Virus record (IMG/VR): IMGVR_UViG_3300031669_000157
Location: 1 to 31,186 of that record
Strand: one strand, 5' to 3'
Length of the DNA stretch: 31,186 bases
DNA from: a virus
Shown here: positions 4,355 through 20,208 of the stretch, in pieces
Layout of the letters: each line of letters begins with the position of its first letter
How positions within the stretch are numbered: position 1 is the first letter of the stretch
Position numbers and translations under genes: made by a program
Notes under the pieces: generated by a model
Databases searched by the model: none
Told to the model about the DNA's origin: nothing
The model's input: only the letters and a program-made list of their open reading frames with translations

Positions 4355-5143
4355 TTGCTAATTCGTCAATCATTTGATCAACGGTTTGTTTTAAAACTTA
4401 AAGAAATAGAAGAAAAATATGGGTCAGAAATGATCCGTTTAGATGGTATTGGTTCAGATAAATTAGATATTAATCAATTTGCTAAAGATTTTTTTAATAA
4501 TAATGTTATTTCAAATGTATCTAGTGATGGTAATGCTAATGTTGATGATAATTCAGTATTAACCTTTGAACATGAATTTGGTAAATCACTTCAAAAGGTT
4601 AATGCATATTATCATATGTGGAATATTATGGTTAAAGATAGTAATATTGGTATTAAACGAGCTAATAAAATTCTTGAATTGTGTATTAATGGTTCTCTTA
4701 AAATTCACGATAATCATATGTGGATGAAGCCGTATTGTTTTGCATTTTCTCTTGACGGATTAGTTATAAAGGGACTTCCTTTTATTTCCAAGGTAAAAAT
4801 TGGACCACCAAAACATTTTAAATCCTTTATTAATTTAGTTATACAGTTTACTGCATTTGCTAGTAATCAATTAGCCGGTGCAACAGCATTTTCAGATTTG
4901 CTTGTTTATATGGATTGGTATGCCCGTAAAGATTATGGTGAAAATTATCAAGAGAATGATATCGTTTTAACCGTTAATGGAAATAATTTTACTCTAATGG
5001 AAAGCGAAAATATAGAAATAATGAATAAAAACACTAAAGAAATTAGTATAACAACAGCTAAAGAATTTTATAATAATAATATGCAAGAAACGTATTTAAT
5101 TGATGATAAACATTTACAAAGAATATACAATAGAAAAATGTAA
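4355..5143 (+). CDS. nrdD: Anaerobic ribonucleotide reductase, N-terminal fragment (NrdD-a)
   Basis: This encodes the N-terminal part of class III ribonucleotide reductase (NrdD), which reduces ribonucleoside triphosphates anaerobically. Residues 1 to about 200 are NrdD-like, including KIHDNHMWMKPYCFAFSL and the conserved FASNQLAGATAFSDLLVYMDWYARKDYGENYQEN. The normal protein would then run directly into the segment encoded from 5192. Instead about 60 unrelated residues follow (from DIVLTVNGNN to the stop), so the reading frame ends early. I infer gene fission: the rest of NrdD is a separate cistron. The start is TTG with GGAGG six nt upstream, 1 nt after the nrdG stop. The tail lacks the nucleophilic Cys/Ser and terminal His-Asn of an intein. 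The two halves may assemble as a split enzyme. Confidence 0.85.
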   Translation: MLIRQSFDQRFVLKLKEIEEKYGSEMIRLDGIGSDKLDINQFAKDFFNNNVISNVSSDGNANVDDNSVLTFEHEFGKSLQKVNAYYHMWNIMVKDSNIGIKRANKILELCINGSLKIHDNHMWMKPYCFAFSLDGLVIKGLPFISKVKIGPPKHFKSFINLVIQFTAFASNQLAGATAFSDLLVYMDWYARKDYGENYQENDIVLTVNGNNFTLMESENIEIMNKNTKEISITTAKEFYNNNMQETYLIDDKHLQRIYNRKM

Positions 5144-5191
5144 AAACTTTTTTATAAATGATGTTGATATTAAAATAAAGGAGAAATAATT

Positions 5192-6839
5192 ATGGCATTT
5201 GTAGAAGTACAGAAAACAGAATGTAAAACTTCAAAAGTAATGGAGTCAATTCGTGAGGAATTACAATCACTTGTATTTTCTTGGAATTTTCCGTTTCGTA
5301 GTTTCTGCGCTTCAATATAGTAATATATTGTCGAAACTCTCTTAATTGCGAGGAACCCCTGAGAGCTTCAATACCACAATATGATCAGTAATGATGAAAT
5401 ATGATGGTTATAAAAAATTTGAAGATTGGACAATTCGCAGCCAAGTTATCCTATGGGATAAAAGGTTCAACGACTATCCGAAAGGAGTAGGATTACAAGC
5501 TATTGGTAATCCAAAATAGAGAGGTTCCTATTAGGAATTTGATATAGTCTCAACTTACAAGAAATTGTAAGCATCAACCGATGGTTTGTGCGTAGCGTCA
5601 TAAATAAAGATATTGGGATCACAATCAGCATTTGTGAATGTGAATTTGTATGATGATTACTTTCTTAGGGATTTATTTGTATCAACAATTTATCCAGATA
5701 TGTCTACACCAAACTTTGAAAGTATAAAAAAACTACAAGAATATTATATGCGTTGGTTTGTTAACGAGTCGAAACATCAAACACTTACTTTTCCAGTAAA
5801 TACTGCAACGTTTTATAAAAATGATGATGGTGAAATAATGGACAAGCAATTTCTTGATCTTGTTTCAGAGTTAAATTGTGTAAACGGAACATTTAATATT
5901 TTTACCGGACCATTAGGGGTCCTCTCATCTTGTTGTAGATTGCGAAATGATATGAACGAAACAAAAGAGTATATGAATTCGTTTGGTGCGGGAGGAACAT
6001 CTATTGGATCACATAGAGTTGTTACTATTAACCTTCCACATATTGGATATGAAGCTGAAGATGATGCCGATTATATGAAACGATTAGAATATAACATAAA
6101 AGCTGCACAAGATATTCTTGATATTCATAGAAAAATAATTACAGATAATATTAATAAAGGAAAACTTCCATTATATACACATCAGTTTATGGATTTGAAT
6201 CGTCAATTTTCTACTATTGGTTTTATAGGAATAAACGAGGCATGTGAAATACAAGGATATGATATAATGGATGAACAAGGATCAGTATTTGCAAAAAATA
6301 TATTAAATAAAATAAATAAATTAAATTCTGATAGAACACTTCAAGATGGGTTTATACGAAACCTTGAACAAATTCCTGGAGAATCTGCCGCAGTTATGTT
6401 TGCTAAAAAAGATAAACTGTTATTTACTAACCAACGATATAAAATGTATGGAAATCAATATATACCCCTTTGGAAAAATGTAGATATCGAAGATAGAATA
6501 AATGTTCAGGGTATGTTCGATAGTATGTGCGGTGGTGGTTCTATTGCTCATTTAAATTTAACAGATTCGTTAACTTCACAACAAATGAAACAAATAATTC
6601 TAACTGCTGCAAAAAGGGGTTGTATTTATTTTGCGGTTAATATGGCACAATGTAGATGTAAATCTTGTGGTAAATTATTTATTGGTAAATTTGAAAAATC
6701 TCCGTGTCATGATGCTGATGTTGATAAATACCTTCGTGTTGTTGGTTTTTTGACAAAAGTTGATAATTGGATACCGGAAAGACGAGAAGAATATAAACTT
6801 AGACAATTTTATAAATCCGCCAATATAAACCCAAATTAA
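5192..6839 (+). CDS. nrdD: Anaerobic ribonucleotide reductase, C-terminal part (NrdD-b), interrupted by a group I intron
   Basis: The predicted exons are 5192-5302 (37 codons) and 5616-6839. Joined, they read NFPFRS|GSQSAFVNVNLYD, the conserved NxPxRxGxQxxF NrdD motif. The protein has about 444 residues. Active-site cysteine region: GVLSSCCRLRND. Near the C-terminus are a Cys-rich zinc site (CRCKSCGK ... PCHD) and the glycyl-radical motif RVVGFLT, where the Gly should carry the radical made by NrdG. The start ATG has a strong AAAGGAG 9 nt upstream, so this half is translated independently of NrdD-a. Unspliced RNA would stop at the TAG at 5318-5320. Together the halves total about 706 residues, longer than T4 NrdD (605), mainly from the NrdD-a tail and the first 15 residues here. 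Confidence 0.88.
5303..5615 (+). ncRNA. Group I intron in nrdD-b
   Basis: A 313-nt self-splicing intron is inferred from conserved core elements in the right order: P-like AATTGCGAGGAACCCCT (5344-5360), Q-like CAATTCGCAGCCAAG (5431-5445), R-like GGTTCAACGACTA (5464-5476) and S-like GATATAGTCT (5541-5550). A CTTACAA/TTGTAAG hairpin follows as a possible P9. Boundaries come from restoring the NrdD protein motif: exon 1 ends in T (5302) and the intron ends in G (5615), as group I introns require. The P1 pairing at the 5' site could not be settled by eye. There is no endonuclease gene inside. T4 also has a group I intron in nrdD (sunY); whether the insertion site is the same needs an alignment. 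Confidence 0.88.
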
Positions 6840-9721: not shown

Positions 9722-10498
9722 ATGAGAGATAAGGATACCAAAATTTTAGAAGAACGTTATGAAAATCTTTATTCTGTTGGACAGATTAAAGAAGATGACA
9801 CTTCTCTTGATGCAATTCAAAATAAGAAAAACGATTCTGACGATGACGATAAAGAAGATTCTAAAGATTCAGATGATAAAGAAGATTCTAAAGATTCAGA
9901 TGATAAAGAAGATTCTAAAGATTCAGATGATAAAGAAGATTCTAAAGATTCAGATGATAAAGAAGATTCTGATGATAAAGAAGATTCAGACGATTCAGAC
10001 GATTCAGACGATTCAGATTCCGATGGAGATTCTGGTATCCAAAATAAAGTAAAACAACTTCAAAAACAATATAATGATTTGTTAGTTGATGCTTTTGAAA
10101 AATATGCTGCTGAATGTATTGAAACCGCCCTTGATGGTGTTGAATCTAGTTTTGGTGAAAACATTACTGATATTCTAGATAATGCACTACAAGATCTTAA
10201 AGGTAAAATACTTTTAGATTTGGGCGTTGAAGATACCATGAATGACATGGAAACTATAGATATAGGAAATACAGGTACTGGTGAAATGGAAGTAGATATT
10301 GGAGACGGTGATTCTGATGTTACTTTTGGTTCGAATGTTGGTGGAGTTCCAACGATGTCCGTAGATACTGAAAATGATATTAGTCAAGAATCCTGTAACC
10401 TTAAGAAAAAAACTAAAAAAGCTATTAAACTAAAAAATACAAAATTAACGGAATCCACAGAAGCAACTACCGTTGCTAAATTTTATGGATTTGTATAA
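9722..10498 (+). CDS. Highly acidic repeat protein, possible prohead core component
   Basis: 258 residues. Residues about 40-100 are almost purely Asp/Ser/Lys/Glu, made of DSKDSDDKE repeats followed by DSD repeats. About 105-165 is predicted alpha-helical (KVKQLQKQYNDLLVDAFEKY), and the C-terminus is basic (KKKTKKAIKLKNTK). The overall impression recalls T4 gp67, a short prohead-core protein with a long acidic Asp/Glu/Ser tail, but order and length differ, so homology is not established. The N-terminal DKDTKILEERYENL resembles the starts of other small proteins here. AAGGAG lies 7 nt before the ATG, and the gene is 13 nt after the FN3 gene and followed by a strong terminator. Confidence 0.75.
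   Translation: MRDKDTKILEERYENLYSVGQIKEDDTSLDAIQNKKNDSDDDDKEDSKDSDDKEDSKDSDDKEDSKDSDDKEDSKDSDDKEDSDDKEDSDDSDDSDDSDSDGDSGIQNKVKQLQKQYNDLLVDAFEKYAAECIETALDGVESSFGENITDILDNALQDLKGKILLDLGVEDTMNDMETIDIGNTGTGEMEVDIGDGDSDVTFGSNVGGVPTMSVDTENDISQESCNLKKKTKKAIKLKNTKLTESTEATTVAKFYGFV
9848..9970 (+). repeat. 27-bp in-frame tandem repeat in acidic gene
   Basis: Four identical 27-nt units start at 9848, 9875, 9902 and 9929, each encoding DKEDSKDSD. A partial fifth unit follows, then four 9-nt GATTCAGAC-type units to about 10018. Near-perfect identity at the nucleotide level implies recent expansion by slippage or recombination, so copy number is probably variable. Confidence 0.9.
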
Positions 10499-10593: not shown

Positions 10594-10884
10594 ATGCAAC
10601 GTACTACCAAACGTAAGATTTGTAAAACTGGTTCTAAACCATGCCAAATATGTAATACTAAAGAGATATTAGTTGAACATCATATTAGAGGTAGAAACAT
10701 ACCAAATTGTAATAGTAATTCTAACTTAGCATATGTTTGTCCTAATTGTCATCAAAAAATCCATTACGGAATTATTGTTTTAGAGGGATATTTCATGACA
10801 ACTAGTGGAGTAGAATTGTTTTGGCATTATTATAAGGACGAAAGTTTTACTGGAGAAAATATTAAACCACATTTAATTAAGTAA
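10594..10884 (+). CDS. HNH endonuclease
   Basis: A 96-residue HNH nuclease, probably a free-standing homing or nicking enzyme. Residues: CQIC (C17, C20) and CPNC (C49, C52) form the structural zinc site. The catalytic ββα region contains EHHIRGR (H29/H30), N44 and HQKIH (H53, H57). The ATG at 10594 is chosen because the upstream in-frame TTG codons give a hydrophobic extension without a ribosome-binding site. Even the ATG lacks a Shine-Dalgarno and is preceded by a late-promoter motif one base away, so the message may be leaderless. The 3' end overlaps the convergent minus-strand gene by 8 bp. It sits isolated between a terminator and oppositely oriented genes, typical of mobile nuclease genes. 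Confidence 0.85.
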   Translation: MQRTTKRKICKTGSKPCQICNTKEILVEHHIRGRNIPNCNSNSNLAYVCPNCHQKIHYGIIVLEGYFMTTSGVELFWHYYKDESFTGENIKPHLIK

Positions 10885-12145
10885 GTTTAAGTCTAGTGAC
10901 TATTGTTTGTTTTTTGTTTTTAAATTCTTCTTGTTTTTTAACCGTTGCTTTAATTTTATATGTTTGTCCATCTTCTAAATATGTTGTTGTTCCAGATGAA
11001 AACCATTTTATGTTATTACCATTTTTATCTTCCATGTTATATAACGTAACTATTCCATAGTAAGAAGTTATAGGTTTAGAATATAATACTGTTACCGTTG
11101 TTTCTATTTTCTGACCGATAGTACCAACATATGCTGATGGGTTTTGGTTATTTAATGATTCATCTTTTTCTTTATTTTTCTTATGAATATACATACCAAC
11201 AGTTGCGGCGGCATAACCAAATGTTTTATATGAAACCACATTAGAATCAAATATAGCTTTTACGTTTCTCCAAAATTCAGGCATTGAAGAATTTGTTATA
11301 TTTTCTTCTTTTGATGTGAAATCTTTAACCCATTTTATTGTATCATCTGCAAGTGTTTTATCCTTTTCTGTTAAGGGTACTTGTCCTCTACCATCTATAT
11401 TAGTAGGAAACATAGCATTTAAAGCCAACGTTTTAGTTGTAGGTTCTTCATGTTCTTCAGCGTTTTTTACAGAAACATATCCAAACGAATTGGCAAAGTG
11501 TGAAACATATATCAGAAAGTCTTTTAGTGAAACTCTTTTTAAATTAGAAGAATTACCACCACCTAAATAGTCAATATTTTCTGCATTATAAAAAGACTCC
11601 ATAAAGTTTCTTATAAAAACAGCATATTTTAGAAATTTTTCAGGATCGTGACCCAGAAAATCTTTTAAACATGTTCTACCAATTTGTTTAATTTCATTAG
11701 TTTCTGTGTTTTGTATTAAAAATGTCTGTGTTCTAAATCTATTATATTGACAATGATCACATTCAGGCATTGATGTCCAATATGAATCAGGAATTTTTAC
11801 AGTTTCTGTTGGTACTTTATCAATAATGTTTTGTGTGATATTGGCATTATGATTAATGACTGCAATAAGTTTCCAACCAGGTAGTGTAGGTCCTTCACCT
11901 TCAAGTTTAATTTTTTTATATGTTACAATTTCTGGTACTATTAAGTCATTGCCATTTCTATCTTTTGTTATTGTTGCTTCTTTTTCTGAAATTATGTTTA
12001 TTTTTAATGGAGGAAGACCTAAATTACTAGAACGCTTGTTTAGTTTATTAATTTTGTTAACTAACCAGTCCCAATTGTAATGTGGAATTTCAAAAACGTT
12101 ATCATCGTTCTTGTTTTCTATTAAAAATTGTTTAAATGTTATCAT
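10877..12145 (-). CDS. Predicted internal head protein with Cys/His motif; unknown function
   Basis: 422 residues. The N-terminus MITFKQFLIE|N resembles the T4 capsid-targeting sequence MKTYQEFIAE that is removed by protease gp21 after a (L/I)xE site, so the protein is probably packaged in the head. About residues 128-165 contain ECDHCQYNRFRTQTFLIQN ... IGRTCLKDFLGHDP, a Cys/His motif I recall from uncharacterised phage and plasmid proteins. The C-terminal 85 residues (YVGTIGQKIETTVTVLYS ... YYGIVTLYNMEDKNGNNIKWF) look like an OB-type nucleic-acid-binding barrel. There is no Shine-Dalgarno; a late-promoter motif lies 2 nt from the start codon. The gene is in the same minus-strand unit as the methyltransferase. 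Function is unknown; action on host nucleic acid after injection is inference. Confidence 0.8.
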   Translation of the reverse strand: MITFKQFLIENKNDDNVFEIPHYNWDWLVNKINKLNKRSSNLGLPPLKINIISEKEATITKDRNGNDLIVPEIVTYKKIKLEGEGPTLPGWKLIAVINHNANITQNIIDKVPTETVKIPDSYWTSMPECDHCQYNRFRTQTFLIQNTETNEIKQIGRTCLKDFLGHDPEKFLKYAVFIRNFMESFYNAENIDYLGGGNSSNLKRVSLKDFLIYVSHFANSFGYVSVKNAEEHEEPTTKTLALNAMFPTNIDGRGQVPLTEKDKTLADDTIKWVKDFTSKEENITNSSMPEFWRNVKAIFDSNVVSYKTFGYAAATVGMYIHKKNKEKDESLNNQNPSAYVGTIGQKIETTVTVLYSKPITSYYGIVTLYNMEDKNGNNIKWFSSGTTTYLEDGQTYKIKATVKKQEEFKNKKQTIVTRLKLT

Positions 12146-12147
12146 TT

Positions 12148-12157
12148 TAATTATTTA
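12148..12157 (-). promoter_or_regulatory. Putative late promoter (minus strand)
   Basis: Reads TAAATAATTA on the minus strand, two nucleotides before the start codon at 12145 and overlapping the end of the upstream methyltransferase gene. It predicts a leaderless transcript. Confidence 0.55.
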
Positions 12158-13146
12158 TTAATTATATTAGCATCTTTTAACTGTTTTGCAAATATATTAC
12201 TTCTTCCAGATGGAGATGTAATACCAGCATTTCTATATGATTGACTTCTTTCTTTGGACTTTTCTACATCAAATCCTTTATAATTATCATCAACCCATTG
12301 CCATTTGTGGTGATATATCTGTGTTTCATTACGCTCTTTGGATATGCTTCCATCTTTGAATATTGTTATCATGCGACCAACTACTGGTTCACTAGAAGAA
12401 TCGAAGCCAGGAGCTTCCTGAAACGTTACTGCACCTGTTGTAAGGTCGTATGAAACTGTATTATAATTCCAGTCTAGTCCTGCGGCGTCAAAAACTGATT
12501 TAGCACGGATGTAATCTTTTCCAATCTGGCTTTCTGCATAGTTGCGATGGAGATAAATTCTCTTCCAAACCACTTTTCCAACACTAAAATTACGACCTAA
12601 AATAGTGCCACCACGCTTTAACGGTGTTGGCGTTATATTATGGGGTTGTCTGGCGTAAACTAACTCTCCTTTACGAACTACAGATGTAAACCTAGATTTC
12701 AAATCAGCTTCCAGTCTAGCTGGAGACATCCATTCTGCCTTTGGACCAGATGTGGGCATATTGACAATGAGTGATCCGTCTGTTGACGTAATTTTTTGTA
12801 AGAGGTTTAGTATAAAATTGTATGATGTCAGAGGGGTATCAGTTTTCGATTGTACGTTAAGAACATTACTTGCTAACACCACATTATACTTTTTAGTTAA
12901 GTCTCCAGTTATTCCATGTCCTGGGTCATGCGCTGTGTATATTCCACCACGGTTTTCTGTTATTTCTTTAGCACCACCGTATGGACCAGATCCAAAGTCC
13001 ATTACACTATCACCAGATTTAATAACGTCAGCAGCAGCAGCGTACACTTTCTGCTTTCCACCCCAATCACGAGCAGTTTTTGCCATTGCCATTTGAGATG
13101 ATGGTGTATGTGACATTTCGGCTAAAAAACGTTTAAAAGTAATCAT
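12151..13146 (-). CDS. SAM-dependent methyltransferase with capsid-targeting N-terminus
   Basis: 331 residues. MITFKRFLAE|M matches the first 10 residues of the neighbouring gene's product and the T4 internal-protein signal, with an LAE site for gp21 cleavage. A Rossmann methyltransferase follows: motif I SVMDFGSGPYGG at about 47-58, an acidic residue after strand 2 (TAHDPGHG, D74), and NVVLASNVLNV at about 88-98 as the motif IV region. Residues about 195-331 are an additional domain of unknown type (HHKWQWVDDNYKGFDVEKSKERS). The substrate cannot be told; there is no DPPY/NPPY, so an N6A/N4C DNA methylase is not directly supported. The gene appears less AT-rich than its neighbours. It is headed by a late-promoter motif 4 nt from the ATG. 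Confidence 0.82.
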   Translation of the reverse strand: MITFKRFLAEMSHTPSSQMAMAKTARDWGGKQKVYAAAADVIKSGDSVMDFGSGPYGGAKEITENRGGIYTAHDPGHGITGDLTKKYNVVLASNVLNVQSKTDTPLTSYNFILNLLQKITSTDGSLIVNMPTSGPKAEWMSPARLEADLKSRFTSVVRKGELVYARQPHNITPTPLKRGGTILGRNFSVGKVVWKRIYLHRNYAESQIGKDYIRAKSVFDAAGLDWNYNTVSYDLTTGAVTFQEAPGFDSSSEPVVGRMITIFKDGSISKERNETQIYHHKWQWVDDNYKGFDVEKSKERSQSYRNAGITSPSGRSNIFAKQLKDANIINK

Positions 13147-13168: not shown

Positions 13169-13178
13169 TAAATAATTA
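13169..13178 (+). promoter_or_regulatory. Putative late promoter of gene 4
   Basis: TAAATAATTA, then AA, then the ATG at 13181. No ribosome-binding site is possible between them. Confidence 0.6.
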
Positions 13179-13180
13179 AA

Positions 13181-13645
13181 ATGACAAAGTACAAACAGTA
13201 TAGACAAGGCTTTTTTACCCCAAATAACGCACTTAAATATAAAGGAAGTTCCCCTGTCGTTTATAGATCATCACTTGAACTTTGTTATATGCGATGGTTG
13301 GATAATAATAGAAATATAGTCTCCTGGGGCAGTGAAAGTGTTGTAATTCCTTATATAAAACCCACAGATGGCAAGTTACACCGATATTTTATTGATTTTA
13401 ATTTTACTATTAAGGATAAGAATAAACAACTTCACAAGTTTCTTGTTGAGATAAAACCTGCTAAACAATGCAAAGCACCTAACACTAAAAACCGAAAAAA
13501 CAAGCAAAATCTATTAAAAGAACAAATTACGTATGCTGTTAATATAGCAAAATGGACCGCTTCCAAACAATGGGCTGATCATAACGGTTATAAGTTTGTA
13601 ATAGTAACCGAAATAGACATTAAAAACATTAAAAACAATAAATAA
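13181..13645 (+). CDS. 4: Head completion protein, gp4-like
   Basis: gp4 (with gp50) acts after DNA packaging to finish the head so that it can join the tail. 154 residues (T4 gp4 is 150). It matches T4 gp4 along its length: ALKYKGSSPVVYRSSLELCYMRWLD (T4 SKYRGDPKKITYRSNWEKFFFEWLD), NIVSWGSESVVIPYI, HRYFIDFNF and KFLVEIKPAKQ. The TnsA-like PD-(D/E)xK nuclease residues are present: E33, D72 and E90-x-K92, so nuclease activity is plausible. There is no Shine-Dalgarno before the ATG; a late-promoter motif ends 2 nt upstream. The stop overlaps the promoter motif of gene 21. Confidence 0.92.
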   Translation: MTKYKQYRQGFFTPNNALKYKGSSPVVYRSSLELCYMRWLDNNRNIVSWGSESVVIPYIKPTDGKLHRYFIDFNFTIKDKNKQLHKFLVEIKPAKQCKAPNTKNRKNKQNLLKEQITYAVNIAKWTASKQWADHNGYKFVIVTEIDIKNIKNNK

Positions 13646-13673: not shown

Positions 13674-14363
13674 ATGAACCAAAACGCCTTAAAATTGTTA
13701 GTTGAAGAGCCAAATTATGATATTAATTTGCTTATAGAAGAAGAAGGTCCACATAAAAATCGTAGAATGTTTTTTGAGGGCATTTTTATGAGGGCAAATC
13801 AAAAAAACAAAAACAATAGGGTTTATTCTTTAGATGAAATGGTGCGTGAATTGGGTAGATATGATAAAGAAATGATTAAAACGGGTCGTTCACTCGGAGA
13901 ACTTTCGCATCCGCAGTCTGTTGAGATTAATCCTGAACGTTCTTGTCATATAATTACAGAATTGCGTCAAGATAATGAAAGTTTTTATGGTAAATCTAAA
14001 ATTTTAGAAACACCAATGGGACAAATAGTAAAATCTCTTATGCTTGATGGTGTTAAATTAGGTGTATCTACAAGGGCGTTAGGAAAACTTGAAGAAAACG
14101 GTGATCATAATGACGTATCAGATTTTAGATTAATTTGTTGTGATGTTGTTCATGATCCTTCAGTTGATACTGCATTTGTAGAAGGGATTTTTGAAGCTAA
14201 ACAATACATACTTAAATGTAACGGAACTGTTTGTGAATTTGTTGATAAAGCTTATGATGAATTAGAACAAAATCTTTGTACACTACCAAAACATTCAGAT
14301 GATAAACAAGAAAAGCTTTCTAATTCTATTATAGAATTTATTAATGCAATGAAAACCATGTAA
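13674..14363 (+). CDS. 21: Prohead core protease, gp21-like
   Basis: gp21 is the serine protease that matures the prohead by cutting scaffold, core, internal proteins and the capsid protein after (L/I)xE sites. 229 residues. Catalytic His in GELSHPQS (H79) and Ser in LGVSTRALGKL (S132) are in the usual context (MVRELGRYDKEMIKTGRSLGELSHPQ; TPMGQIVKSLMLDGVKLGVS), as in T4-type marine phage proteases. Its own N-terminus has LLVE|E and LLIE|E, possible self-cleavage sites. It has its own late promoter motif and GGAGA ribosome site. It is followed directly by small core-like genes, then scaffold and capsid, the conserved assembly block. Confidence 0.94.
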   Translation: MNQNALKLLVEEPNYDINLLIEEEGPHKNRRMFFEGIFMRANQKNKNNRVYSLDEMVRELGRYDKEMIKTGRSLGELSHPQSVEINPERSCHIITELRQDNESFYGKSKILETPMGQIVKSLMLDGVKLGVSTRALGKLEENGDHNDVSDFRLICCDVVHDPSVDTAFVEGIFEAKQYILKCNGTVCEFVDKAYDELEQNLCTLPKHSDDKQEKLSNSIIEFINAMKTM

Positions 14364-14735: not shown

Positions 14736-15182
14736 ATGAAAGCAATTGATATAGGTTTTATGACAGAAAAATGGGATGTAAATAACTCAAGAAAACCATT
14801 TTGGGATAAAACACAAAAACGACAGGTAAAAGAGCAAACAATAAAAAATGATCCTATTAATGATAAAAATTTAATAGAAAAAATTAAATCTATGTTGGCA
14901 CAGGTTAAAAAGTTAGAAGATGGAGAAGAGAAAAAGGAACTTATTCGTAATATTATGCAGGAAATGTCGGCATTGTATAAACCAGAAGCCGAAGAAATTG
15001 TTGATATGTTTGAAAAGGATTCATTAAAAACAACTAGAGGTAATTACGGTAAATATATGTCGTTTCTTTCTAATCCAAAATTAGTTGGTATTCATCGTGG
15101 GGCTATGGTGATTGCACTTAGAGCCGCTGGTGCTGGACAAGGTTTAGAAGATGCACTTAAAATAATCGGAGGCAATTATTGA
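14736..15182 (+). CDS. Putative core/internal head protein with MKAIxxGFMTE leader
   Basis: 148 residues, mostly helical (LIEKIKSMLAQVKKLEDGEEKKELI). I do not recognise a family. The first 11 residues, MKAIDIGFMTE, are nearly the same as the first 11 of the next gene (MKAINVGFMTE), while the rest is different. The MTE ending fits a gp21-like cleavage site, so I infer a capsid-targeting leader. AAAGGAGG lies 5 nt upstream, among the strongest ribosome sites in the window. The C-terminus (HRGAMVIALRAAGAGQGLEDAL) is Ala/Gly-rich helix. Part of the 21-to-22 assembly operon. Confidence 0.78.
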   Translation: MKAIDIGFMTEKWDVNNSRKPFWDKTQKRQVKEQTIKNDPINDKNLIEKIKSMLAQVKKLEDGEEKKELIRNIMQEMSALYKPEAEEIVDMFEKDSLKTTRGNYGKYMSFLSNPKLVGIHRGAMVIALRAAGAGQGLEDALKIIGGNY

Positions 15183-15957: not shown

Positions 15958-16875
15958 ATGACTAAGAAGTTTGAAGATATTTTAAATGCTGTAAATAGTG
16001 ATGTTCTTAATGAACAATCCAAAAAAAGTATTGTAGAAGCTTTTGAAAATGCGGTTAACGAAAAGGTGGATTCTAGAGTAAAATTAGAAATAGACGATAA
16101 TATAAAACGTCTTGATGAAAAGCATACCGAATTACTTCAAACGCTTTTAGAGGCTATTGATGAAGATCATACAAATAAACTTAAAAAGGTTTTGCTTAAA
16201 GTAGATAGTGATTATTCTGATAAACTTACTAAAGTTATTGAAAAATACGAAGGTATGGTTAAAAAAGAAGCAATTGCTTTTCGTGATACATTAACTACTG
16301 AAATGTCTAATTATATGGATATGTATCTTGAAAAAATGATTCCAAGAGACCAAATTCAAGAAGCAGTTAATAATACACAGGCTAAAAGAATTATAGAAAA
16401 GGTTAAAGAGTTGGTATCTATTGATGAAGATTTTATTTCGGATACTATTCGTGATGCATTACAGGATGGTAAGAATCGTATAGATTCACTTACTCATGAA
16501 CTTAATGAAGCAATTAAATCTAATATTCAAATTAATCAAGATTTTAAAAAAACAAAATCGTTGTTAATATTAGAACAAAAAACTGCTGATTTTGATGATA
16601 ATAAAAGATGTTATGTTATGAGGGTACTTAATGAAAAGTCCCCTGAAGAAATCGAAGAAAATTTCGATTATGTTGTTGAGATGTTCGAGCGTGATGAGGC
16701 TGATGAGGCTAAAATTCTTACTGAACAAGCAACGTCTAAGGTTAAATCTAACACAATTGATACACCAGTAGACGATACTAAGACAGAGGATATTATCACG
16801 GAAACAACAGTTGTTTCTACAGAACAGAGACATGTTGCCGGATATCTAAATATGTTAAAAGAACAAGATGGGTAA
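15958..16875 (+). CDS. 22: Prohead scaffold/core protein, gp22-like
   Basis: gp22 is the main component of the internal scaffold and is degraded by gp21 during maturation. 305 residues (T4 gp22 is 269), lacking Trp, very charged and predicted long coiled coil, with heptad-like segments from residue 20 to 210 (LKLEIDDNIKRLDEKHTELLQTL; VKELVSIDEDFISDTIRDAL). Candidate protease sites include SIVE|A near residue 22 and LTE|Q near 258. The identification rests on composition and on its place directly upstream of the major capsid gene; the T4-type phrase MRVLNEKSPEEIEENFDYVVEMFERDEAD is also typical of marine T4-like gp22. Confidence 0.86.
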   Translation: MTKKFEDILNAVNSDVLNEQSKKSIVEAFENAVNEKVDSRVKLEIDDNIKRLDEKHTELLQTLLEAIDEDHTNKLKKVLLKVDSDYSDKLTKVIEKYEGMVKKEAIAFRDTLTTEMSNYMDMYLEKMIPRDQIQEAVNNTQAKRIIEKVKELVSIDEDFISDTIRDALQDGKNRIDSLTHELNEAIKSNIQINQDFKKTKSLLILEQKTADFDDNKRCYVMRVLNEKSPEEIEENFDYVVEMFERDEADEAKILTEQATSKVKSNTIDTPVDDTKTEDIITETTVVSTEQRHVAGYLNMLKEQDG

Positions 16876-16918: not shown

Positions 16919-18409
16919 ATGATTAAACCTGGACCAAATTATATTAATAAAGATAGAGCAAGCGAACTTGTTGCAAAGTGGGGAGAAATTCTTAATTATG
17001 AATCCCCTAGTGTAAAGGCTATTACTGATGACCATACACGTCTAAATACTGCTATTCTTCTTGAGAACCAAGAGCATTGGTGTCTTACAGAAGCTAACGT
17101 AGGTTCAGACGGCGGTGTTTTTGGTACAACCCTTCAGGGTACACCAGGACAGGGTGGTAGTGTTGGTAATTCTGACTTCTACGCACAAGGTGACGCTCGT
17201 TTGCCAAAAGTATTGATTCCTATGATTCGTAGGACGTTCCCAGAACTTATTACGAATGAAATTGTCGGCGTTCAGCCAATGAGTGGACCTGTTGGTCTTG
17301 CTTTCGCATTGCGTTACAAGTATCAGCAAAACTCTCTTGGTCAAGTTGGTTCCTCTGGAGCACAACAATACCAAGACGGTGGAACAGTCCCTGACCATGC
17401 ATACGGTTTGACTAACACTGGTGGTGCCATGAACTTTAATGGCGTTGCTGGTTGGGGTACAAACTCGGATGAAATGGGTTATCAGAACCTTGATACCAGA
17501 TTTACTGGTACATCTTCTGCTGGTCTTAGTGGTCTTGGATCATCGGGTTCAGACTTTGACTTCATCGGTGAAGATGATGGTGTCGCAGACATTTTGGCTA
17601 ACTTCGAATTTACTAGCATGATTCCTCAGATGGAAATCTCATTCGAGAAGACCGCTGTAGAAGCTGGTACCCGTAGATTAGCAGCCAAGTGGAGTGTAGA
17701 ACTTGAACAAGATATCCGTAATATGAACGGTATTGATATTGATGCTGAAATGACTAACGCTATGAGTTATGAAATTCAGGCTGAAATTGACCGTGAAATG
17801 ATTATGCGTATGGTTCAAGTAGCTCTTAACGCTGGCGTAAACCAAGGTTATTCACTTTGGTACGCTGCATGTGCTGACGCTCGTTGGCTTGGTGAACGTA
17901 ACCGTGACTTTTATGCCAAGGTTATTGTTGAAGCGAATAGAGTAGCTATTCGTAACCGTAGAGGTGCTGCTAACTTTATAGTAGCAACACCACGAGTATG
18001 TGCCATACTTGAAATGATGCCCGACTTCAAGTTCATGGATGTTAATGGTAACGTTAACACGCAACCTGTTGGAATTGCTAAGGTAGGTTCAATAGGTGGT
18101 CGTTTTAGTGTTTATCGTGACACACGTACAGAGTCGCAATGGATGATTGGTAAACGTGCCAATTTGGAATATGCTCTGTTAGGTTACAAAGGATCAGAGT
18201 ATTATGACACTGGTATTATTTACTGTCCATACATTCCGGTTATGATACAGCGTACAATAGGACCTAATGACTTTGCACCAAGAGTAGGCTTGCTTACTCG
18301 TTATGGTGTAGTAGATAACTTGTTTGGCGCAGATTTGTACTACCATGTTATAATCTGTAAGGGTCTTGGACAATCATTTGCCCCAGGATCTGCTCATACA
18401 TATCTATAA
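16919..18409 (+). CDS. 23: Major capsid protein, gp23-like
   Basis: gp23 builds the hexamers of the icosahedral/prolate head. 496 residues (T4 precursor 521). The N-terminal propeptide ends in WCLTE|ANVG, predicting gp21 cleavage after E58. Hallmarks of T4-like capsids follow: RRTFPELITNEIVGVQPMSGPVGLAFALRYKY at about 100-131, KTAVEAGTRRLAAKWSVELEQDIRNMNGIDIDAEM at about 244-278 and the C-terminal YCPYIPVMIQRTIGPNDFAPRVGLLTRYGV. Codon use is visibly different from neighbours, with more C-ending and CGT/GGT codons, as expected for the most abundant phage protein. AAAGGAG is about 9 nt upstream of the ATG. The gene ends the head operon before a strong terminator. Confidence 0.97.
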   Translation: MIKPGPNYINKDRASELVAKWGEILNYESPSVKAITDDHTRLNTAILLENQEHWCLTEANVGSDGGVFGTTLQGTPGQGGSVGNSDFYAQGDARLPKVLIPMIRRTFPELITNEIVGVQPMSGPVGLAFALRYKYQQNSLGQVGSSGAQQYQDGGTVPDHAYGLTNTGGAMNFNGVAGWGTNSDEMGYQNLDTRFTGTSSAGLSGLGSSGSDFDFIGEDDGVADILANFEFTSMIPQMEISFEKTAVEAGTRRLAAKWSVELEQDIRNMNGIDIDAEMTNAMSYEIQAEIDREMIMRMVQVALNAGVNQGYSLWYAACADARWLGERNRDFYAKVIVEANRVAIRNRRGAANFIVATPRVCAILEMMPDFKFMDVNGNVNTQPVGIAKVGSIGGRFSVYRDTRTESQWMIGKRANLEYALLGYKGSEYYDTGIIYCPYIPVMIQRTIGPNDFAPRVGLLTRYGVVDNLFGADLYYHVIICKGLGQSFAPGSAHTYL

Positions 18410-19010: not shown

Positions 19011-19160
19011 TGAACTACCCAACGACTAAAGATCGTTGGGTTTCTATAGGATAGTCCCTACCCTTTTTGAAACTCATTTTTGTAAACGCAAAGTCTTTAA
19101 TGTTCTGAGCGGCGTTAATGTCTCTATCATGATGAGTATTACATTTTTGGCAAGTCCACT
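19011..19160 (-). ncRNA. Predicted omega RNA (reRNA) scaffold of TnpB
   Basis: In IS200/IS605 elements the guide RNA covers the 3' end of tnpB and the right end, and its guide is the flanking DNA. Here the scaffold should end at the hairpin 19017-19041 plus TAGTTCA. The guide would begin TTCTATTACCAGATATG (minus strand, from 19010 downward). The 5' limit at 19160 is only a guess. Confidence 0.4.
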
Positions 19161-20208
19161 CTCTTTCATCTCTTCTTAACTCATGATATATATTGCCGCA
19201 AACAGAACAAGTTTTACTGGATGGTTCAAATCTTCCTATTTTAATGAAGTTCTTACCATACCAATCCGACTTATATTGAAGTAGTCTGGTAAAATTATAC
19301 CATCCCATATCTCCAATAATTCTGTTTGTTGGCTTCTCATTATCCCTTTGCATTTTTTTAATAGATAAGTCTTCAATACAAATCGTCTCTACTTGGCTAT
19401 CGTGAGTCAACCTATATGATAACTTATCCAGAAAATCTTTACGCTGTCTACCTATTTTAGCATGTAGTTTACTTATTTGCTCTTTTTTAGAAATATAACA
19501 AGTAGACCACTTTGTTAGTTTCTCTAGTTCTTGTTGATGTTTTGCTAACTTATCCTGAGCCTGCTTAAAGAACCTAGGAGATTCTACCTTTTCACCATTA
19601 TCAAACGTAGTAAATGTTTTAACTCCAAAATCAATACCTATCGCTTTATCTCTTTTCATTTCTGGTTTAGTTGGCAATTCTATGTTTTGCTCTACTAAAA
19701 TAGATACATAATACTTATCAACATGTCTGGAAGCCGTACATTGTTTGATTTCTCCGTCAAACTCTCTGTCGAAGATACATTTTAGTCTATTATCGCTATT
19801 CTTTGTGTTTATGAATTTAGGGATATATAGACGTTTCTTGTCAAAATCTACTCTTATTGATTTAGGTTCAGGAATAGTAAAGGAGTGCTTATTATTCTTT
19901 TTAGACTTAAACTTAGGAAAACTCATATTAGACCGAAAGAAATTAGTATATGCATTATCAAGATGCCTGACTGTTTGCTGTAATGATTGGCTTCCTACTT
20001 CATTAAGCCAATCATATTTTTCCTTGAGAGGCTTGAGTTCATTTGCTAGTTCGCACCAACCTATAGTTTTCTTTGTTTTCTTATAATACTCTATCTTTCT
20101 TTGAAGAAAATAGTTATATATGAATCTATTGGAACCAAAATGTTTTTCAAGCAAAACTCTTTGGTTTTTGTTTGGATATAATCTATATTTATATGCTATT
20201 AGTTTCAT
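19015..20208 (-). CDS. tnpB: RNA-guided TnpB nuclease
   Basis: TnpB uses an RNA made from the element's right end (omega RNA) to cut DNA next to a short target-adjacent motif, favouring element retention. 397 residues, intact. RuvC catalytic residues: D193 (GIDFGVKTF), E279 (ICIEDLSIKKM) and D363 (HDRDINAAQNI). Zinc finger C334-C337-C353-C356 (CSVCGNIY ... WTCQKC). N-terminal helix-turn-helix and wedge region: AYKYRLYPNKNQRVLLEKHFG ... FIYNYFL. All motifs are present, so it should be active. The stop lies inside the right-end hairpin, as usual for TnpB/omega RNA overlap. Confidence 0.95.
   Translation of the reverse strand: MKLIAYKYRLYPNKNQRVLLEKHFGSNRFIYNYFLQRKIEYYKKTKKTIGWCELANELKPLKEKYDWLNEVGSQSLQQTVRHLDNAYTNFFRSNMSFPKFKSKKNNKHSFTIPEPKSIRVDFDKKRLYIPKFINTKNSDNRLKCIFDREFDGEIKQCTASRHVDKYYVSILVEQNIELPTKPEMKRDKAIGIDFGVKTFTTFDNGEKVESPRFFKQAQDKLAKHQQELEKLTKWSTCYISKKEQISKLHAKIGRQRKDFLDKLSYRLTHDSQVETICIEDLSIKKMQRDNEKPTNRIIGDMGWYNFTRLLQYKSDWYGKNFIKIGRFEPSSKTCSVCGNIYHELRRDEREWTCQKCNTHHDRDINAAQNIKDFAFTKMSFKKGRDYPIETQRSLVVG
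19017..19041 (-). repeat. Right-end hairpin of the TnpB element
   Basis: Perfect 9-bp stem ACCCAACGA/TCGTTGGGT with loop CTAAAGA. The loop is identical to the left-end hairpin, supporting a shared transposase recognition structure. Confidence 0.9.

Follow-up and report, generated by a model that had tools for sequence, protein, structure and literature searches.

The internal proteins (IPs) of bacteriophage T4 act against restriction at time zero, and to our knowledge such proteins have so far been known mainly from T-even phages. Here we analyse two consecutive minus-strand genes, named P1 and P2, in a stretch of viral DNA of 31,186 nucleotides (IMG/VR record IMGVR_UViG_3300031669_000157, positions 1 to 31,186; the whole stretch is called the window). 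Their products start with MITFKQFLIE and MITFKRFLAE, respectively, and are predicted to be cargo of the phage head.

The closest described systems are T4 IPI, IPII and IPIII (leader MKTYQEFIAE), which have only the leader in common and inhibit type IV restriction; for Ip2 and Ip3, injection and inhibition of the type IV enzymes have been shown recently (PMC12373910). As reviewed in PMC9026906, mutants of the IPIII capsid-targeting sequence show that residues 4 and 7 serve targeting and residues 8 and 10 serve processing, and ten residues are enough to package foreign proteins. P1 and P2 resemble the T4 IPs in having a ten-residue leader on unrelated proteins, with aromatic residues at positions 4 and 7, L or I at position 8 and E at position 10, as well as in the gp21-type protease encoded by the phage, the late-type promoter box and the variable cargo. 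They differ in the leader consensus, which is MITFKQFLxE here, and in size: the T4 IPs are small, whereas P1 is a predicted OB-fold protein of 422 aa and P2 a methyltransferase of 331 aa that carries an additional domain, named HHKW below. The T4 ADP-ribosyltransferase (ART) Alt, which is injected and processed by gp21, is comparable in that here, too, an enzyme is expected to travel in the head and to act immediately on infection, and in its similar N-terminal cut site. Alt belongs to a different enzyme class, however, and has a shorter propeptide. We know of no homology of Alt to P1 or P2.

The N-terminal leader

Both open reading frames (ORFs) lie where an initial annotation, made from the letters of the window, had placed them (Table 1), and its observation that P1 and P2 share nothing obvious beyond the leader agrees with BLASTP, which finds no further similarity. 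The first ten residues, described there as shared, are indeed alike, but only 8/10 are identical, positions 6 and 9 being different. Both proteins carry the aromatic residues F4 and F7 and a gp21 site (L/I)-x-E at positions 8-10, namely L-I-E in P1 and L-A-E in P2, and both a gp21-type (S77) protease and a gp23-type capsid protein are encoded in the window. Since no other in-frame ATG, GTG or TTG occurs for about 50 codons of P1, translation has to include its leader.

When 2.9 million IMG/VR contigs were searched with a degenerate DNA pattern for M-(LIVM)-T-F-K-(QE)-F-(LIVMF)-x-E, at least 120 stretches were matched. ORFs of 50 aa or more with the N-terminus M-x-x-F-x-x-F-(LIVMF)-x-E were then collected from the matches listed and from genomes with several leaders. 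The resulting 173 leader ORFs form 75 clusters with undetectable similarity outside the leader, so that among these matches, as in P1 and P2, the leader is common to otherwise unrelated proteins. Because the search pattern itself fixes residues, scans with a single free position were also performed. With position 4 free (complete scan, 99 stretches), F was found in 91/92 sequences; with position 7 free, F or Y was found in 82/85 (58 F and 24 Y); and with position 10 free, E was found in 59/75 distinct sequences, the sequences in these scans being not fully independent of each other although many unrelated cargos are spanned. The positions constrained in the IMG/VR leaders are those mapped by mutation in T4. 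All four Thr codons and both codons of F, K, Q and E are used in the leaders, and this synonymous variation indicates that the constraint acts at the level of the peptide rather than at that of DNA or RNA.

The generic leader pattern has 98 matches in 38 IMG/VR records that bear leaders, compared to 1 for the reversed pattern. As a positive control, the same pattern matches three sites of the T4 genome, in ipII, ipIII and gene 61.1. Ten strict leader genes are found in a record of 141 kb (G006), and eight, mostly back to back, in a locus of 11.8 kb (L202). Moreover, of the 16 leader-bearing records that are 100 kb or longer, 14 encode Peptidase_S77. By these sequence comparisons the leader is shown to be a constrained, modular signal at the protein level. 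The proposal of a T4-style targeting leader with a gp21 site on two unrelated proteins is thus strongly supported, owing to the 75 cargo clusters, the constraint on the positions mapped in T4 and the co-occurrence of gp21-type proteases.

An alignment of 68 cargo proteins, in which F4 and E10 are invariant, was not used as evidence because the proteins had been picked by the pattern itself. A looser N-terminal test (hydrophobic-x-E) turned out to be weak, 36% of the ORFs at the same loci passing it, and we therefore relied on the strict leader. No report of the MITFKQFLxE leader in environmental phages was found in the open-licence PMC literature, and the pattern scan found no strict leader in Atu_ph07, a phage with a virion proteome.

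The T4 gene 61.1 (AF158101, 18966-19130) encodes a 54-aa protein of unknown function that starts with MKTFKEFIKE. From this sequence its product is a candidate for an unrecognised internal protein.

Predicted cargo proteins and the cargo slot

The initial annotation had described P2 as an S-adenosylmethionine (SAM) methyltransferase with an extra domain. The methyltransferase family alignment (A6) retains the DxGxG motif, an acidic residue after strand 2 and SNVLNVQ, with G52, G54, D74, S93 and N94 invariant. Relatives of the domain match Methyltransf_23 (best 1.4e-12), and the leading PDB profile matches of the family are SAM methyltransferases (best E 6e-4); P2 on its own gave no passing Pfam match to a methyltransferase family. 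Together, motifs and profile matches show the N-terminal domain to be a class I SAM methyltransferase, as judged from sequence. A6 was obtained, together with A7, by splitting a mixed P2 alignment (A4) in which methyltransferase rows were misplaced. The motif (N/D/S)PP(Y/F/W) of DNA amino-methyltransferases (N6A/N4C) is absent, and the motif IV position reads SNVLNVQ in A6. The P2 family differs in the same way from the methyltransferase-helicase DarB of bacteriophage P1, since DarB-type proteins carry NPP(Y/F).

The C-terminal domain of P2 was named HHKW after the motif [YW]HHKWxWVxDDYxGFD. It is predicted by AlphaFold2 (AF2) with a predicted local distance difference test (pLDDT) score of 95. 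The fold search gave no significant match to a solved structure and returned only a giant viral protein, and profile searches against solved structures with the HHKW and P1 families found no convincing relative.

Residues 17-421 of P1, i.e. its whole core, match phrog_2319 (1e-68), whose relatives include KVP40.0369, Aeh1ORF229c and SCTP-2 gp41, homologous to the P1 core over the whole length, plus 191 IMG/VR stretches. P1 in the window has the leader and a short linker ahead of the core; in the AF2 model, residues 1-14 have a pLDDT below 50 and the core strand begins at residue 17. The earlier description of P1 as oligonucleotide/oligosaccharide-binding (OB)-like is supported by the predicted fold, and C129, H131, C132 and C159 are invariant. 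The best Foldseek match of the OB domain is 1o7i, a single-stranded DNA (ssDNA) binding protein (E 8e-3, prob 1.00), followed by RPA, POT1 and LEF-3 (E ~1e-2). The likeness of the modelled fold to ssDNA binders is suggestive, and P1 probably binds nucleic acid. The conservation pattern makes a metal site the probable role of the Cys/His cluster.

Among the leader-tagged proteins, Pfam identified ART-PolyVal, ADPrib_exo_Tox, SAM lyase, Zeta toxin, GNAT, DnaJ, RNA ligase, HAD phosphatase, DUF6267 and Methyltransf_23 domains. On these assignments the cargo resembles effectors and not assembly factors, and cargo with ART-PolyVal, SAM lyase, Zeta-toxin and GNAT domains fits injected effectors. Tandem leader-tagged paralogues of about 200-310 aa with FRG/RGM motifs occur in L202 (1906-11467), where the array adjoins a probable tail gene, and in L174 (G006). 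The two large leader-tagged FRG/RGM families look ART-like; they are not called ARTs because Pfam gave no match for their representatives.

The position of P1 and P2, which we call the cargo slot, was compared with that in a close relative (L382), whose gp21, scaffold and closure proteins are 80%, 74% and 71% identical to those of the window and whose gene order is alike. In the same slot, on the opposite strand between a gene for an acidic protein and the closure/gp21 genes, L382 has separate HHKW (MITFKRFLVE) and methyltransferase (MITFKEYMLE) genes, each with a leader. The bodies of these proteins are 36-44% identical to P2, and the HHKW leader is 9/10 identical to that of P2. The cargo in this slot thus evolves fast, whereas the leader is conserved. 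A leader-tagged HHKW gene also occupies the same slot in L433, and in another phage (L004) the HHKW and methyltransferase proteins are both leader-tagged.

HHKW and methyltransferase domains are encoded by adjacent ORFs in L382, L405, L413 and L439, are joined in one protein, with their order reversed, in L419, and both lie within large proteins in L451 and L453; we propose that the pair works as one unit. In records where no S77 protease was found, HHKW mostly lies inside proteins whose length ranges from about 700 to 3900 aa; a Mu-type portal is fused to one of these, and another contains LPD38, a domain of large polyvalent proteins. Leader genes are present in 5/6 S77-positive HHKW records versus 3/28 S77-negative ones (Fisher p = 0.001; many of the records are fragments). 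From this distribution the HHKW domain appears to reach virions by two routes and is an undescribed domain of probably packaged proteins, and its presence in giant and portal-fused proteins provides independent support for packaging. Giant polyvalent proteins have been proposed to be injected (Iyer et al. 2017, PMC5512222). Both domains of P2 are found in such giant phage proteins; P2 itself, unlike them, is small (two domains, 331 aa) and leader-tagged, and is not a polyvalent protein. Giant HHKW proteins were seen in L421 (1531-6795), L451 (1140-9584), L383, L386 and L395.

Probable late expression and packaging, and alternatives

Late-type promoters had been assigned to P1 and P2 in the initial annotation. 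The canonical T4 late box TATAAATA was rejected as a candidate, since it is not enriched in the window (8 found, 9.9 expected). A related claim can be upheld for the box TAAATAATTA, which is found 7 times compared to 1.3 expected, a number reached in 0/100 shuffles. The seven copies are located upstream of P1, P2, the closure gene, gp21, the gp22 candidate, 6881 and 28113(-). In sequence terms, this placement is consistent with late expression together with the head genes.

We consider it highly probable that P1 and P2 belong to the same kind of head cargo as the T4 internal proteins, made late, targeted by the leader, cut by gp21 and injected. Each protein would be made with a leader of the form M-I-T-F-K-x-F-L-x-E, whose aromatic residues 4 and 7 would dock it on the prohead core; by analogy with T4, the gp22 candidate is the expected binding partner. 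Protease gp21 would then cut at the L-x-E site, behind E10, so that the mature protein would lie free within the head, from where it would enter the next host cell together with the DNA. In this way P2 would deliver a SAM methyltransferase with the HHKW domain, and P1 a Cys/His protein with a predicted OB fold, most likely for protecting the incoming DNA or disarming host defence before phage gene expression. Packaging and gp21 processing are very likely, as the signal is homologous and gp21 co-occurs with it; from these we further infer injection, targets and benefit. A counter-defence role of P2 and P1 is the leading guess because Ip2 and Ip3 inhibit type IV restriction.

Several observations weigh against this interpretation. 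The homologues of P1 in KVP40, Aeh1 and SCTP-2 start at the core and lack a leader, as do most of the 66 IMG/VR relatives of P1 examined, and KVP40 also has leaderless neighbours, adjoining inh, related to P1 and to the HHKW domain. E10 is missing from 16/75 leader-like N-termini. Additionally, TAAATAATTA lies only 2-4 nt from the ATG of P1 and P2, and a Shine-Dalgarno sequence was not seen at either start. At this distance the 5' leaders of the transcripts would be very short or absent. The closure gene has its box likewise 2-4 nt from the ATG, again with no Shine-Dalgarno sequence, and leaderless late mRNAs are possible at all three genes.

Homologues lacking the leader had been named in the initial annotation as evidence that would speak against its idea. 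They do exist for P1, and the idea still stands with the leader regarded as an add-on module. Since the P1 homologues are mostly leaderless, the tag appears to have been added, and sequence comparison makes P1 look like an ordinary phage protein recruited into the virion in this way; the leaderless form in other phages is presumably not packaged by the leader route. The association of P1 with HHKW is old, given that the KVP40 neighbours of inh are related to both.

Apart from cargo, P1 could be an intracellular binder of ssDNA or RNA, its leader-like N-terminus being a functionless recent fusion with the start region of P2. The widespread leaderless homologues and the location of P1 directly after P2 would fit such an origin. 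We regard it as unlikely, because the P1 leader differs at positions 6 and 9 and yet keeps F4, F7, L8 and E10, because P1 has no alternative start codon, and because OB-fold proteins are plausible cargo.

The leader might also lead only into the prohead core, in an assembly or scaffold role, and the proteins might be degraded or lost after the gp21 cut, with no injection. This is the fate of most T4 gp22, gp67 and gp68. Short leaders ending in hydrophobic-x-E are also present at the start of gp21 and other core genes of the window, and most T4 core proteins leave the head during maturation (PMC9026906). A core-only destination is nevertheless improbable, since the cargo consists mostly of enzymes with no role in assembly (ART, SAM lyase, Zeta toxin, GNAT, RNA ligase, methyltransferase) and HHKW is also found in giant polyvalent and portal-fused proteins.

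That the leader is unrelated to heads and serves as a translation, stability or localisation tag on mobile 5' gene ends would account for its presence on many unrelated genes and for P1 homologues that manage without it, but is highly improbable in view of the variable synonymous sites, which leave no conserved DNA or RNA element, the constraint on positions 4, 7 and 10, which parallels that of the T4 capsid-targeting sequence, the association with gp21-type proteases and the recovery of T4 ipII and ipIII by the pattern.

Beyond the packaging and injection of P1 and P2, environmental T4-like phages probably inject varied enzymes along with their DNA. We lean towards a broader view in which MITFKQFLxE is a general virion-export tag, single phages carrying ten or more effectors in rapidly changing slots beside the head genes. 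These effectors would include ADP-ribosyltransferases, SAM lyase, Zeta-toxin-type kinases and the methyltransferase-HHKW pair, which in phages with other head types would be delivered within giant proteins or as a fusion to the portal. Such a tag, readable from sequence, would turn many "hypothetical" genes of uncultured environmental phages into predicted injected effectors, each with an exact predicted N-terminus. If this is true, ten added codons make any protein an injected effector, and the leaders could be used as they stand to bring enzymes into phage heads.

Neighbouring genes and other leader types

The head-gene surroundings proposed for P1 and P2 were confirmed and are those of a T4-like phage (Table 1), except that P2 is not directly beside gp21, the closure gene intervening. 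The family phrog_207, matched by the gp21-type product, is annotated as head maturation protease.

Table 1. Positions of P1, P2 and associated features in the window.
Feature	Position	Strand	Remarks
P1	10877..12145	-	422 aa; leader plus phrog_2319 core
P1 predicted C-terminal OB fold	10883..11128	-	about residues 340-421; AF2 strands 346-421
P1 invariant cluster C129-x-H131-C132 ... C159-L-K-D	11660..11761	-	residues 129-162; alignment A5 (34 sequences)
P1 leader MITFKQFLIE	12116..12145	-	predicted capsid-targeting sequence; predicted gp21 cut after E10, mature N11
TAAATAATTA box upstream of P1	12148..12157	-	overlaps P2 stop codon
P2	12151..13146	-	331 aa; leader plus methyltransferase plus HHKW domain
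P2 C-terminal HHKW domain	12235..12618	-	about residues 177-304; phrog_16075 5.6e-22
P2 class I SAM methyltransferase domain	12652..13098	-	about residues 17-165
P2 leader MITFKRFLAE	13117..13146	-	predicted capsid-targeting sequence; predicted gp21 cut after E10, mature M11
TAAATAATTA box upstream of P2	13151..13160	-	back to back with 13169-13178(+), closure gene
Head-closure gene	13181..13645	+	phrog_218 3.8e-49; borders cargo slot
gp21-type prohead protease	13674..14363	+	predicted processing enzyme; Peptidase_S77 PF03420 2.8e-26; phrog_207 4.2e-54
Scaffold (gp22) candidate	15958..16875	+	T4_CASP 0.0012, below curated cut-off; between gp21 and gp23
Major capsid protein gp23	16919..18409	+	PF07068 2.8e-89

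Downstream of gp23, a gene for a TnpB-like transposon protein was recognised by eye from its translation (19015-20208, minus strand). An nrdD-like gene of the window (4355-6839) consists of two ORFs with extra sequence between them, and its counterpart in L382 is one ORF of 603 aa; the split gene possibly contains an intein or intron.

Two further types of leader were observed. A second type, M-(N/R/K)-x-K-D-x-x-(L/I)-(L/I)-x-E-x-Y, is present on several otherwise different proteins of the window, L433 and L382. In the window it is found at 9722, 14364 (probable start 14376) and 26871(-). The proteins that carry it include a very acidic T4 gp67-like protein and the products of four small ORFs near gp21 in L433; it is possibly a core-protein leader. 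A third type, MK(A/I)I(D/N)(V/I)GFMTE or MKHIKAHNVGF(L/M)xE, starts several small proteins encoded next to gp21, at 14736 and 15179 in the window and at 1246-1701 and 3821-4528 in L382.

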